Assembly (NCBI GenBank): GCA_013112545.1
Contig: JABFGJ010000008.1
Coordinates: 1-64,000, forward strand
DNA: 64,000 nucleotides
From: Bacteroidota bacterium
GTDB taxonomy: Bacteria > Bacteroidota > Bacteroidia > Flavobacteriales_E > Vicingaceae
Direction: 5' to 3'
Below are positions 6,288-11,241 of the stretch, in pieces. A program made the position numbers and the translations under genes. How positions within the stretch are numbered: the stretch's first letter is position 1; each line of letters begins with the position of its first letter. The notes under the pieces are model-generated. The model was not told where the DNA came from. It saw only the letters and a program-made list of their open reading frames with translations, and made no database searches.

Positions 6288-7169
6288 ATGACTGTTTATT
6301 CAATAAAAGATTTAGAATTAATAAGTGGTATAAAAGCACATACCATTCGTATTTGGGAACAACGCTACGGTTTGTTTACGCCGCAGCGAACAGAAACCAA
6401 TATACGTTATTACGACAGCGATCAATTGTGTAAGTTGCTAAATATCTCTAATCTAATCGCCAACGGATACAAAGTTTCGCAAATTGCAAAACTGAGTAAA
6501 ACTGAAATGCAAAATAAGGTCAATGAGCTTATTGATTCAAATGAATTAACGGACACTAAAGCCGGTATATTGATTAATCGACTAATCGATTCAGCTATAA
6601 ATTACGACGAAGAACTTTTTCAAGAGTTGTTTTACAAATCGGTGGACACCTATGGACTAATTGGTGCTTTTACTCATGTTATTTACCCTATGCTAATCCG
6701 AATTGGTTTAATGTGGTTTAAACAAGATATTATCCCTGCTCAAGAGCATTTCATTTCGAATTTAATTCGACAAAAGTTATTTGTTGCCATCAATAGTCTT
6801 GAACAAGCTTCTAATAATGCTGAATCTTGGTTGTTGTTTTTGCCTGAAGATGAGGAACATGAAATTGGTTTGTTGCTCAGTTATTTTATATTAAAGTCAA
6901 AAGGTAAACGTGTTTTTTATCTTGGACAGCGTGTTCCAATAAGCAGTTTAGACTCCATTATTCATAAAAAACAACCTGATGCCATTCATTTTTTTCTAGT
7001 AAAAAACAATTGTTGTAAAAAAACTCAAGAATATATCGATCAAATTTCAGAAATTAGCAAGGGAATAAAAGTTCATGTTTCAGGAAATGAGATTCTAAAA
7101 AGTCAAGTTAAAATGCCGAGAATCTTCAACTGGATCAATTCTTTAGAAAAATTTACGAGTAAGATCTAA
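6288..7169 (+). CDS. carH: CarH-like MerR-family regulator with cobalamin-binding domain
   Basis: The 293-residue protein has an N-terminal MerR DNA-binding domain (about 1-70: IKAHTIRIWEQRYGLFTPQRT). A helical bundle follows with W143-x9-E153-H154, the W-x9-EH signature of AdoCbl-dependent CarH photoreceptors. A Rossmann-like B12 domain then carries H191 in a PEDEEHEIG context, the expected lower axial ligand. In the known system the dark AdoCbl-bound tetramer represses carotenoid genes and light disassembles it. The gene sits directly upstream of crtI. The residue after W143 is Phe, where Thermus CarH has the His that ligates cobalt after photolysis. The gene symbol is by analogy. Confidence 0.85.
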   Translation: MTVYSIKDLELISGIKAHTIRIWEQRYGLFTPQRTETNIRYYDSDQLCKLLNISNLIANGYKVSQIAKLSKTEMQNKVNELIDSNELTDTKAGILINRLIDSAINYDEELFQELFYKSVDTYGLIGAFTHVIYPMLIRIGLMWFKQDIIPAQEHFISNLIRQKLFVAINSLEQASNNAESWLLFLPEDEEHEIGLLLSYFILKSKGKRVFYLGQRVPISSLDSIIHKKQPDAIHFFLVKNNCCKKTQEYIDQISEISKGIKVHVSGNEILKSQVKMPRIFNWINSLEKFTSKI

Positions 7170-7181
7170 ACAATTCTTTTG

Positions 7182-7221
7182 TAGTTTTGTTTAACTTTTC
7201 AAACAAAACAATAAACAAAAC
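7182..7221 (+). promoter_or_regulatory. crtI promoter with three copies of a 9-bp motif (candidate CarH operator)
   Basis: TAGTTTTG at 7182-7189 fits the Bacteroidota -7 consensus TAnnTTTG. The motif AAACAAAAC occurs exactly at 7201-7209 and 7213-7221 as direct repeats with a 12-bp period. It occurs again as its exact reverse complement GTTTTGTTT at 7184-7192, overlapping the -7 box. The repeats end at the TTG start codon of crtI. Occupation by the CarH-like protein encoded just upstream would block the promoter. Direct repeats fit how CarH tetramers are known to bind, but binding here is inference. Confidence 0.6.
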
Positions 7222-8709
7222 TTGTCGCAAAAGAAAATAGCAATTATAGGTTCAGGGTTTGCGGGACTTGCAGGAGCATCTGTATTAGCTCAAGCAAAAC
7301 TCGATGTTCATGTATTTGAAAAGAACGAAAGCATTGGGGGTCGTGCTAGACAATTTAAAAATCAAGGCTTTAGCTTTGATATGGGGCCTAGTTGGTATTG
7401 GATGCCCGATGTCTTTGATCGTTTTTTTGAACGATTTGGAAAATCCACTACAGATTACTTCGAACTTAAAAAGTTAGACCCTGGTTTTCAGGTAATATTC
7501 AATGATTCGGAAACTTTAAAAATCCCCGGTGAATATCAGGAATTGCTGCAATTGTTTGAAGACATAGAATCTGGAGCAGCTGATAAACTTGAAAAATTCA
7601 TGTCAGAAGCTAAGTACAAATACGAAGTTGGGGTCAATGATTTAGTTTATCAACCAGGATTATCAATTTTGGAGCTGCTTAGACCAGACCTGATGAAAGG
7701 AGTATTTAGATTACAAGTCTTTTCATCTTTTAGTAATCATGTGAAAAAATATTTCAAAGATCCACGACTCATCTCCTTAATGGAGTTCCCCATCCTCTTT
7801 CTTGGCGCAATGCCAAAAGACACTCCTGCATTATATAGTTTAATGAATTATGCTGGTTTAAAAATCGGCACCTTTTATCCGATGGGAGGTTTTGGTAAAT
7901 TAATAGATGCAATGGAAAGTATCGCTTTAGAACAAGGAGTTCAATTCCATTCAAATGAAGCAGTTAATGGTTTTAATTTTGAAGCAAAAACAATTACTCA
8001 CTTAACAAGCCGTAAAACAAATTATAAGTTTGACGCCATTATGGCTTCTGCCGATTATCATCATGTAGAACAAAAGTTATTACCAAAAGAATTGAGAAAT
8101 TACACTGAATCGTATTGGGAAAAAAGAGTGTTTGCTCCTTCTTCTCTTTTGTTTTACCTTGGAGTGAATAAAAAGATTGCCAAATTATTGCATCATAATT
8201 TATTTTTCGATGAAGATTTAACACCTCATGCTGAAGATATCTATTTAAATAAAAGATGGCCTAAAAAACCATTGTTTTATGTCTGTTGTCCTTCAAAAAC
8301 AGATAATACTGTAGCTCCTGAAGGGTCTGAAAATATATTTATATTAATGCCAGTTGCTCCAGGCATTGAGGATACTGATGAAATTCGAGAAACTTATTTT
8401 AAATCCCTTTTAAAACGATTAGAAAACTATACGAATGAAGCAATAGAAGAGCATATCGTTTTTAAAAAATCTTACTGCATTAAGGATTTTCAGCAAGATT
8501 ATAATGCATACAAAGGAAATGCTTATGGATTAGCAAACACATTAATGCAAACGGCAAACTTAAAACCTAAGATGAGAAACAAAAAAGTCAAGAATTTATT
8601 TTACGCTGGTCAGCTTACAGTTCCTGGTCCTGGAGTCCCTCCTAGCCTTATATCTGGTCAAGTTGCTGCAAAACAAATAATTAATTATTTAAACCAAAAA
8701 ACAATATGA
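7222..8709 (+). CDS. crtI: Phytoene desaturase
   Basis: The 495-residue FAD-dependent enzyme introduces double bonds into phytoene to give lycopene. It has an N-terminal dinucleotide-binding motif (IAIIGSGFAGLAGA... EKNESIGGRARQF, residues 5-45). The C-terminal carotenoid-oxidoreductase signature (LFYAGQLTVPGPGVPPSLISG, about 460-480) is also present. The start is TTG; no ATG precedes the FAD motif in frame, and the length is normal for CrtI. Its stop overlaps the crtB start (ATGA), which suggests translational coupling. The preceding 52 bp contain the candidate CarH operator. Confidence 0.93.
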   Translation: MSQKKIAIIGSGFAGLAGASVLAQAKLDVHVFEKNESIGGRARQFKNQGFSFDMGPSWYWMPDVFDRFFERFGKSTTDYFELKKLDPGFQVIFNDSETLKIPGEYQELLQLFEDIESGAADKLEKFMSEAKYKYEVGVNDLVYQPGLSILELLRPDLMKGVFRLQVFSSFSNHVKKYFKDPRLISLMEFPILFLGAMPKDTPALYSLMNYAGLKIGTFYPMGGFGKLIDAMESIALEQGVQFHSNEAVNGFNFEAKTITHLTSRKTNYKFDAIMASADYHHVEQKLLPKELRNYTESYWEKRVFAPSSLLFYLGVNKKIAKLLHHNLFFDEDLTPHAEDIYLNKRWPKKPLFYVCCPSKTDNTVAPEGSENIFILMPVAPGIEDTDEIRETYFKSLLKRLENYTNEAIEEHIVFKKSYCIKDFQQDYNAYKGNAYGLANTLMQTANLKPKMRNKKVKNLFYAGQLTVPGPGVPPSLISGQVAAKQIINYLNQKTI

Positions 8710-9542
8710 AAGCACTTTTTGATGAAGTTTCAACAAAATGTAGTAAGCTCACAACAAGATCTTACAGCACGAGCTTTTCTTTGGGTATCTATTTATTAGA
8801 TTCATCTATTCGAAAACCAATTTATGGGATTTACGGCTTTGTGAGACTTGCAGACGAAATTGTCGATAGTTTTCACGGCTTCGACAAATCGACTTTGCTA
8901 GATCGATTAAAAATGGAAACATACCGAGCCATTGATGAAAGAATTAGCCTAAATCCTATTCTGAACAGTTTTCAAGAAGCTGTTAACCAATACCAAATTG
9001 AACATGAATTGATAGAAACTTTTTTAAATAGCATGGAAATGGATTTAGATAAAAATTCATACAATCAATTGGGTTATGAAAAATACATACTCGGTTCTGC
9101 AGAAGTTGTTGGTTTAATGTGTTTACGAGTTTTTACTTATGGTAATGATGATTTATTCAAGCAGTTAAAACCGGCTGCTCAAAAACTAGGTTCAGCCTTT
9201 CAAAAAATAAATTTTTTAAGAGATGTTCAAGCTGACTTCAAACAATTGGGTAGAACCTATTTTCCCGATGTTGAAATGGAAGCCTTTTCAAATGAAGATA
9301 AATTCAAAATTGAAAAAGAAATTGAATTAGAATTTCAAGAAGCCCTTGTTGGTATCAAACAATTACCAACATCCTCAAGATTGGGTGTTTATGTGGCTTA
9401 TGTGTATTATTTGCAGTTATTAAAACGCATCAAAAATTTGCCAGCAAACCGAATGATGGAAGAACGAGTAAGCGTTCCTAACTCACATAAATTCGGATTA
9501 ATGGTAAATTCGTTTGTAAAACATCAATTGAATTTACTTTGA
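8706..9542 (+). CDS. crtB: Phytoene synthase
   Basis: This 278-residue squalene/phytoene synthase condenses two geranylgeranyl diphosphates to phytoene. Both aspartate-rich Mg2+-binding motifs are visible: D50-EIV-D54 (in YGFVRLADEIVD) and D173-VQA-D177 (in NFLRDVQAD, followed by LGRTYFP). It overlaps crtI by 4 bp, and its TGA overlaps the TTG start of the next gene. It clearly belongs to the same operon. Confidence 0.93.
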   Translation: MKALFDEVSTKCSKLTTRSYSTSFSLGIYLLDSSIRKPIYGIYGFVRLADEIVDSFHGFDKSTLLDRLKMETYRAIDERISLNPILNSFQEAVNQYQIEHELIETFLNSMEMDLDKNSYNQLGYEKYILGSAEVVGLMCLRVFTYGNDDLFKQLKPAAQKLGSAFQKINFLRDVQADFKQLGRTYFPDVEMEAFSNEDKFKIEKEIELEFQEALVGIKQLPTSSRLGVYVAYVYYLQLLKRIKNLPANRMMEERVSVPNSHKFGLMVNSFVKHQLNLL

Positions 9543-10039
9543 AACAGATTTACACCATTCTGCTTGTAATCTTTCCCTTACTGTTGACAGCCGAGGACAA
9601 TAATCAATTAATAAGCCTCAGAAATCAATTTTACGCAGCATCTGAAGAAAAAATTAACTTAAATCACTTTGCTTCATTTATCGATGAACTAAAAGATTCT
9701 GATAATCCTACCATACAAGCATATCGAGCTATGTTATACATGTTGCAAGCTAAAGAATCGTGGAACCCTATTAAAAAATTCAGCCATTTCAATCAAGGTA
9801 AAAACCTTCTGGATAAACTTATTTCTGAAAATCAAAATAACATTGAGCTTCGATTTTTGAGGTTATGCATACAAATAAATTTACCTTCCTTTTTAAATTA
9901 TGATAACAAAGACATAGATACCATGTATTTACTAAAAAACTTAAGCAAACTTAAAGATCAAGACCTTTTAAATAGAATCAATATCTTTTTGAATGACAAT
10001 CAGCTATTATCAACAAATATTCAAGTTAAAAATGGATGA
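9539..10039 (+). CDS. Exported protein of unknown function within the carotenoid operon
   Basis: The product has 166 residues with a hydrophobic signal peptide (MKQIYTILLVIFPLLLTAED). The mature part is helical and resembles one or two degenerate TPR-like helix pairs (FIDELKDSDNPTIQAYRAMLYMLQAKESWNPIKKF). The start is TTG, overlapping the crtB stop as TTGA, and the 3' end overlaps idi by 8 bp, so it is co-translated with the pathway enzymes. No catalytic motif is seen. It occupies the place where many flavobacterial clusters carry the hydroxylase crtZ, but it is not a hydroxylase: it has no membrane helices or His clusters. Function is unknown. Confidence 0.8.
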   Translation: MKQIYTILLVIFPLLLTAEDNNQLISLRNQFYAASEEKINLNHFASFIDELKDSDNPTIQAYRAMLYMLQAKESWNPIKKFSHFNQGKNLLDKLISENQNNIELRFLRLCIQINLPSFLNYDNKDIDTMYLLKNLSKLKDQDLLNRINIFLNDNQLLSTNIQVKNG

Positions 10040-10562
10040 AAATCAAGTCATATTAGTTGACGAACAGGACAATGAAATTGGTTTTATGGGAAAACTTGAG
10101 GCCCACCAAAAAGGACTTTTACATCGCGCTTTTTCTATATTTATTTTCAATGAAAAAAATGAAATGCTCATACAGCAGAGGGCTTTAAGTAAATATCATT
10201 CACCAGGCTTATGGACAAATACCTGTTGTAGTCATCCCAAACCAAATGAACTATTATTAGATGCGGCTAATAGAAGATTAATGGAGGAAATGCACATGCA
10301 AGCAACTTTAGATCATGTTTATCAGTTCACTTATCGAACTGAGTTTGAAAATGGTTTAGCTGAACATGAAATAGATCACGTTTTTATTGGCTATACAAAT
10401 CAATTACCTACAATAAATCCAGTGGAAGTAGCAGCCTACAAATACTTATCAATAAGTGCTTTAGAACTCGATGTAAAAGCTAACCCCAATCACTATACTT
10501 CTTGGTTTAAAATCTGTTTATCTAATGTCTTAAAAACAATAAAGAAAAGATTGAATGAATAG
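10032..10562 (+). CDS. idi: Isopentenyl-diphosphate delta-isomerase, type I
   Basis: This is a Nudix-fold enzyme of 176 residues that interconverts IPP and DMAPP, the C5 units for carotenoids. The TNTCCSHP motif holds the catalytic Cys (C65/C66) and ENGLAEHEIDHVF holds the catalytic Glu region (about 107-118). The ATG at 10032 is chosen over an upstream in-frame ATG at 9993 because it gives the normal family length and an 8-bp coupled overlap with the previous gene. It overlaps the following cyclase gene by 8 bp. Confidence 0.92.
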   Translation: MDENQVILVDEQDNEIGFMGKLEAHQKGLLHRAFSIFIFNEKNEMLIQQRALSKYHSPGLWTNTCCSHPKPNELLLDAANRRLMEEMHMQATLDHVYQFTYRTEFENGLAEHEIDHVFIGYTNQLPTINPVEVAAYKYLSISALELDVKANPNHYTSWFKICLSNVLKTIKKRLNE

Positions 10563-11241
10563 TTATTTATACCTTTTCGTGAATTTAGGAGCTTTAATTA
10601 TTCCATTCATTTATTCTTTTCATCCTAAATTATTGTTTTATAAAAAATGGAAGTCCTACTTTTTGAGTAATCTCATTACCATTATACCTTTTATTATTTG
10701 GGATATTGCATTTACCGAAAAAGGCATTTGGGGTTTTAATCCAAATTATCTAACAGGTTTATACATTTGGAATCTACCCATAGAAGAAATCTTGTTTTTT
10801 CTATGCATTCCTTACGCATGTGTTTATACTTGGCATTGTTTTAAGGTGTTGCTATGGAGAGAGCGTTTTATTAAACCCAAGAAGTGGCTTAATTATTTCT
10901 TAATTGGGTTCTCATTATTCATGTCTTTTATTTTTGCTCAACAAGATTACACCTTCTTAACTTTTTTAGGATTAGCAGTACTTTTAGTCTATTTAACTCT
11001 AAGTAAAACCAAATGGCTAAGTTCTTTTTACCTCACTTATCTTGTCTTGTTAATCCCCTTTTTAATTGTAAATGGCATTTTAACAGGCACAGGAATAGAA
11101 TCTCCCATTGTTTGGTATAATGATTTAGAAAATATCGGAATTCGAATTCTAACTATACCAATTGAGGATGTGTTTTATGGAATGACTTTAATCTTGTTAA
11201 ACGTTACTCTATTTGAGCATTTTAATAAAAAAATAGCTTAA
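10555..11241 (+). CDS. Lycopene cyclase, fused CrtYc-CrtYd type
   Basis: The 228-residue integral membrane protein has about seven helices. It carries two internally repeated motifs, P75-I-E-E78 and P202-I-E-D205. This is the signature of the heterodimeric CrtYc/CrtYd lycopene cyclases when fused in one chain. It should cyclise lycopene ends to beta-rings. Together with crtI, crtB and idi the operon predicts beta-carotene; no hydroxylase or ketolase gene is present here. It is the last gene before a strong terminator. Confidence 0.85.
   Translation: MNSYLYLFVNLGALIIPFIYSFHPKLLFYKKWKSYFLSNLITIIPFIIWDIAFTEKGIWGFNPNYLTGLYIWNLPIEEILFFLCIPYACVYTWHCFKVLLWRERFIKPKKWLNYFLIGFSLFMSFIFAQQDYTFLTFLGLAVLLVYLTLSKTKWLSSFYLTYLVLLIPFLIVNGILTGTGIESPIVWYNDLENIGIRILTIPIEDVFYGMTLILLNVTLFEHFNKKIA

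Follow-up and report, generated by a model that had tools for sequence, protein, structure and literature searches.

A conserved inverted repeat beside a CarH-like MerR gene, the probable operator of carotenoid and photolyase genes in a member of the Bacteroidota

The carotenoid locus and its CarH-like regulator

The window (the whole 64-kb stretch of DNA that was analysed) carries on its plus strand a gene for a CarH-like MerR regulator of 293 amino acids (6288-7169), followed by a carotenoid gene cluster. The first gene of this cluster encodes a crtI-like phytoene desaturase with a TTG start (7222-8709; Pfam Amino_oxidase) and is followed by a crtB-like phytoene synthase (8706-9542; SQS_PSY), a NUDIX protein that its context marks as a probable isopentenyl-diphosphate isomerase (9993-10562; NUDIX) and a lycopene cyclase (10555-11241; Lycopene_cyc). 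Between crtB and the NUDIX gene lies an open reading frame of 166 codons (9539-10039), which has no Pfam match and overlaps the next frame by 47 bases. A search of 46 genomes of the window's family found relatives of the regulator in 32, in one case only as a fragment, and relatives of crtI in 28.

The regulator resembles CarH over 226 residues, and both CarH and TnrA are among its relatives in the PDB. It has the MerR DNA-binding head and the B12-binding domain that mark the CarH/LitR family; in Pfam, MerR_1 and B12-binding_2 score above the cut-off and B12-binding (PF02310) below it. Its AlphaFold model (pLDDT 89) matches domains of CarH and of the light-responsive CtMerR with Z of 18-19. 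The Wx9EH motif is present (W143, E153, H154) and invariant in 23/23 aligned sequences, as is the lower-ligand His of the D/ExHxxG motif (E189-x-H191-xx-G194; His in 23/23). The rest of the B12 motif (SxT/V, GG) is degenerate, with Phe236 in place of Ser and SG in place of GG in the window protein. The His that follows Trp and serves as upper ligand in the light state is Phe144 here and occurs in 0/22 Bacteroidota sequences; this His is present in many CarH proteins, not all. With this ligand missing and the remaining B12 residues eroded, B12 binding and light sensing by the regulator are uncertain. A cobalamin adenosyltransferase gene is present in 42/46 family genomes, including that of the window, so AdoCbl could be available.

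An inverted repeat at the crtI promoter

The original prediction placed three copies of AAACAAAAC over the crtI promoter, and they lie as described, at 7184-7192 on the minus strand and at 7201-7209 and 7213-7221 on the plus strand. The two plus-strand copies are 12 bp apart, the last ending at 7221 directly before the TTG start at 7222, and the inverted copy overlaps the box TAGTTTTG (7182-7189, plus strand), all of this downstream of the regulator gene, which ends at 7169. Such a trio within 40 bp appeared in 0/200 simulated 64-kb sequences and a close pair in 4/200; the clustering of three copies is not due to chance. Across the whole window there are 11 occurrences of the 9-mer compared with 2.7 expected from shuffles, so that it is over-represented in general.

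Comparison of regulator flanks and crtI starts bore out part of that prediction, namely a conserved regulatory element at the crt promoter that is tied to the adjacent CarH-like gene. The tandem 12-bp repeat found no support as its unit; conservation falls instead on two inverted six-base arms whose spacer is constant at 16 bp. This palindrome, TGTTTAA-N16-ATAAACA (7188-7217, no strand; arms GTTTAA at 7189-7194 and ATAAAC at 7211-7216), has identical arms and spacer in relatives, and its 30 bases have the general form TGTTTAA-N16-wTAAACA. A weight matrix trained on regulator loci across the phylum (the named loci, below) gave its best score in the window at 7189 (29.2, with a runner-up of 5.2). 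The arms coincide mostly with the inverted and the last direct AAACAAAAC copies, and the middle copy (7201-7209, plus strand) falls in the spacer. Among 111 related sites with a matrix score of at least 20, this middle copy is present in one, the window's own, and AACAAA or TTTGTT occurs in the spacer of 10; it is probably no conserved part of the element. No recurrent 12-bp direct repeat was found in the 160 flanks of the named loci.

TAGTTTTG abuts the left arm and is a candidate -7 promoter box of the consensus form TAnnTTTG. This form is found near 62/111 of the same sites, a count on which we do not lean because the palindrome arm itself supplies part of the box. A simple sigma-70 promoter scan gave counts at or below those of shuffles and is uninformative for Bacteroidota promoters; a terminator scan found none.

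Conservation beside the regulator gene

In the family, 30 regulator loci (from 34 matches) were compared over flanks of 220-320 bp. The core GTTTA-N18-TAAAC occurs 36 times in these 60 flanks, any other spacing at most three times, and 500 shuffles yielded on average 0.10 pairs at this spacer and never more than 2. The exact core is present at 23/30 loci and a matrix score of at least 20 at 26/30, a test that is not fully independent since some of the named loci used for training may be conspecific with family genomes; the low scores of two loci (L019, L021) are partly due to the short stretch.

A high-scoring site also lies at most 1500 bp upstream of 25/27 crtI starts in the family (29 rows, less two whose starts are missing). 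At one of the two exceptions, in genome G028, the sites next to its regulator gene are located at a greater distance upstream. At the other, in G030, what lies upstream are stop-containing remnants of the regulator and ECF genes, and the palindrome has disappeared, a natural loss of the palindrome together with both genes that is suggestive only, coming from one draft genome. G028 also has three regulator paralogues (at L093 and on contigs C23 and C115) and the most stringent sites, ten. A stringent site was found in 26/32 genomes with the regulator versus 5/14 without it (p 0.005, phylogenetically uncorrected, with crtI and the regulator occurring together). At a completeness of at least 90%, the figures are 21/25 versus 2/7 (p 0.01, likewise uncorrected), and both sites among these seven regulator-less genomes scored inside an open reading frame. 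A comparison at the level of the order brings no new lineages, because the available genomes of the order all belong to the window's family (32 genomes at this completeness).

Across the phylum, we examined the best 80 of 589 regulator matches, one genome per species, with flanks of 400 bp; these named loci include Dyadobacter, Pedobacter, Algoriphagus, Spirosoma and Marinifilum. When every 5-mer inverted repeat at the 80 loci was counted without bias, the palindrome core came out first. It is present in the flanks of 50/80, with 68 sites in 64 kb of flank versus 12 in the remaining 617 kb. With longer flanks, a score of at least 15 is reached at 55/80 named loci versus 2/452 background windows, and 25/80 have no clear site even in these extended flanks. 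In seven named loci, the spacer is one base longer. Beside the CarH-like regulator, two inverted TTAAACA half-sites at a constant spacing form a palindrome that is conserved across Bacteroidota. In the titles and opening abstracts searched, which cover few subscription papers, no description of this operator or of a CarH regulon in Bacteroidota was found.

Sites at other genes

The lone exact stringent site in the window's genome lies outside the window, 9 bp before a gene for an ECF sigma factor that is followed by a photolyase gene, the sole PF03441 match in this genome; palindrome, ECF gene and photolyase gene stand in succession on contig C1 (L110:2529-4380). In the ECF promoter, TATTTTTG stands at the offset that TAGTTTTG has in the crt promoter, and at both palindromes the TAnnTTTG box ends in the left arm. 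An ECF relative was found in 18/46 family genomes, and at the loci inspected in relatives the matching ECF gene is located between merR and crtI, except in genera without ECF. The ECF gene thus has a different place in the window's genome, and both pieces keep the palindrome. Relaxed motifs are at background in this genome (core, 10 versus 25 for the control; sites with at most two mismatches, 102 versus 99), for which reason we give weight to a site only if it scores highly and in its context. A third possible palindrome (C8:114902-114931; score 20.6) lies just before a DEAD-box helicase gene.

In the 46 family genomes, TGTTTAA-N16-TTAAACA occurs 68 times, compared with five for the reversed control. 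The regions inspected cover 44 of these 68 stringent sites. Of the 44, 42 do not lie near a regulator gene; 36/44 are intergenic and 8/44 lie inside an open reading frame. Two of these eight (L072, L073) are at the very start of the frame, and the same gene in L075 begins just past the site; the neighbour in L075 matches a polyketide-cyclase-like family below the cut-off. Pfam was run on selected neighbours, and several other flanking genes look unrelated to light. Genes identified beside sites encode photolyase (L084, L086, L091), bacteriorhodopsin-like proteins (L094, L098), PTPS (L096, L105), GTP cyclohydrolase I (L080, L088), glutathione peroxidase (L085, L090, L099), fasciclin (L076, L097, L100), secreted DUF4397 proteins (L079, L093, L095, L101, L102), NmrA-like DUF2867 proteins (L081, L083), TetR-like proteins (L089, L106) and a DUF2805 protein (L087). 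Altogether, the genes downstream of tested sites include those for photolyase, rhodopsin, pterin synthesis, glutathione peroxidase and fasciclin and that of the regulator itself. At L002, a gene for a SOUL haem protein faces the regulator gene.

Comparison with known regulators

TnrA binds a site of 17 bp with inverted TGT...ACA polarity. The palindrome shares this polarity with TnrA/GlnR-type MerR palindromes and, at 30 bp overall, is about one helical turn longer than the TnrA site. The literature drawn on for the B12-type regulators comprises PMC8156234, PMC9304148, PMC11796333, PMC12705666 and PMC5241685. CarH operators described so far consist of 11-bp direct repeats arranged in tandem and sharing the core TnnACA, whereas here two inverted half-sites stand 22 bp apart. 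As a control, the crtB-carH region of Thermus gave three repeats at period 11 and no palindrome. In the flanks of the 80 Bacteroidota loci, tandem pairs at period 11 numbered three, like other periods and without excess, and inverted TGTnnA/TnnACA pairs at spacer 18 numbered 81. Since the half-site TTAAACA contains TnnACA, the DNA-reading head appears to be shared with CarH and the arrangement to be different; for this reason we do not file this set of operator and regulator as a CarH member.

The CarH proteins of Thermus thermophilus, Bacillus megaterium and myxobacteria have in common with the present regulator the MerR-type head and B12-type domain, the Wx9EH motif, the lower-ligand His, a crt target and the TnnACA half-site core. 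In contrast to these proteins, the regulator here has neither the light-state His known from Thermus CarH nor Ser and GG in its B12 motif. CarA of Myxococcus xanthus is a CarH paralogue that also acts at a crt promoter. Inverted repeats were reportedly once proposed as the CarA site; CarA lacks the Trp of Wx9EH, which is kept here, and its operator also has direct repeats. In Streptomyces, a B12-type MerR regulator controls an ECF sigma factor and carotenoid genes (LitR/LitS; PMC12705666). In contrast to that system, the ECF gene here is succeeded by photolyase, and a separate palindrome belongs to the crt operon, an arrangement known from sequence. The best structural match of the regulator model is CtMerR of Chloracidobacterium thermophilum (Z 19.2, with about 20% identity in the alignment), which likewise lacks the light-state His, with Arg at the position of Phe in the window protein.

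Proposed mechanism and alternatives

With the conservation, fixed spacer, closeness to gene starts, gene content of the neighbourhoods and second site in the same genome that we observed, the 30 bases at 7188-7217 are probably (at roughly 70%) an operator for the CarH-like MerR protein encoded next to them. In darkness, this protein would be bound to both half-sites, covering the -7 box and the start region, and would thereby repress the crt operon, hence carotenoid synthesis, as well as the sigma-photolyase pair. Light would release it, probably via bound cobalamin, and the ECF factor may then pass the signal on to further genes.

The signal is the part of this scheme most open to another reading. 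The same regulator on the same operator might answer to oxidative stress or cobalamin status, for example, instead of light, as the light-state His missing from all 22 Bacteroidota sequences, the eroded Ser and GG of the B12 motif, and the peroxidase and SOUL genes in the regulon (which fit oxidative stress) would allow. We consider this rather unlikely, given that Wx9EH and the lower-ligand His are invariant, that photolyase and rhodopsin genes fit light, that the adenosyltransferase gene is present and that CtMerR, also without the light-state His, has been studied as a photoreceptor through its light-exposed structure. Less probable still is that a different regulator of a photoprotection regulon binds the palindrome, such as a TetR-like protein, as sites ahead of two TetR-like genes could suggest, or the ECF sigma factor, whose gene shares the neighbourhood in many relatives. 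The palindrome directly accompanies the gene of the regulator, and its core agrees with recognition by MerR/CarH; in addition, ECF relatives occur in fewer than half of the family genomes (the 18/46 above) and genera without one keep palindrome sites, which speaks against the ECF factor as binder. That the repeats are a mere A-rich leader or an RNA hairpin with no bound protein is highly improbable, despite the window-wide excess of the 9-mer and a possible hairpin of -7.9 kcal/mol, as this hairpin is ordinary (z -1.4; 14/200 shuffles fold equally well), the arms are conserved in sequence at a single spacing, and a TAnnTTTG-like box or TTTG stretch, read by eye, follows the palindrome in L029 and L026, where the palindrome would thus be untranscribed.

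Significance

The palindrome is very probably a little-described light-protection switch. Whether it extends to a phylum-wide light regulon is evenly balanced in our estimation; in such a regulon, CarH-like MerR proteins would recognise a pair of inverted TnnACA half-sites, spaced by 22 bp, in place of tandem repeats and would sense light at a cobalamin site that has no bis-His ligand. Carotenoids, photolyase, pterin synthesis, rhodopsin and an ECF sigma relay would all come under their joint control. If true, this would give a major pigmented phylum of water and soil a defined light-response regulon and would mean that the DNA-reading head of CarH serves in both a tandem and an inverted geometry. 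The motif is specific enough to predict light-controlled genes, rhodopsins included, in uncultured Bacteroidota.
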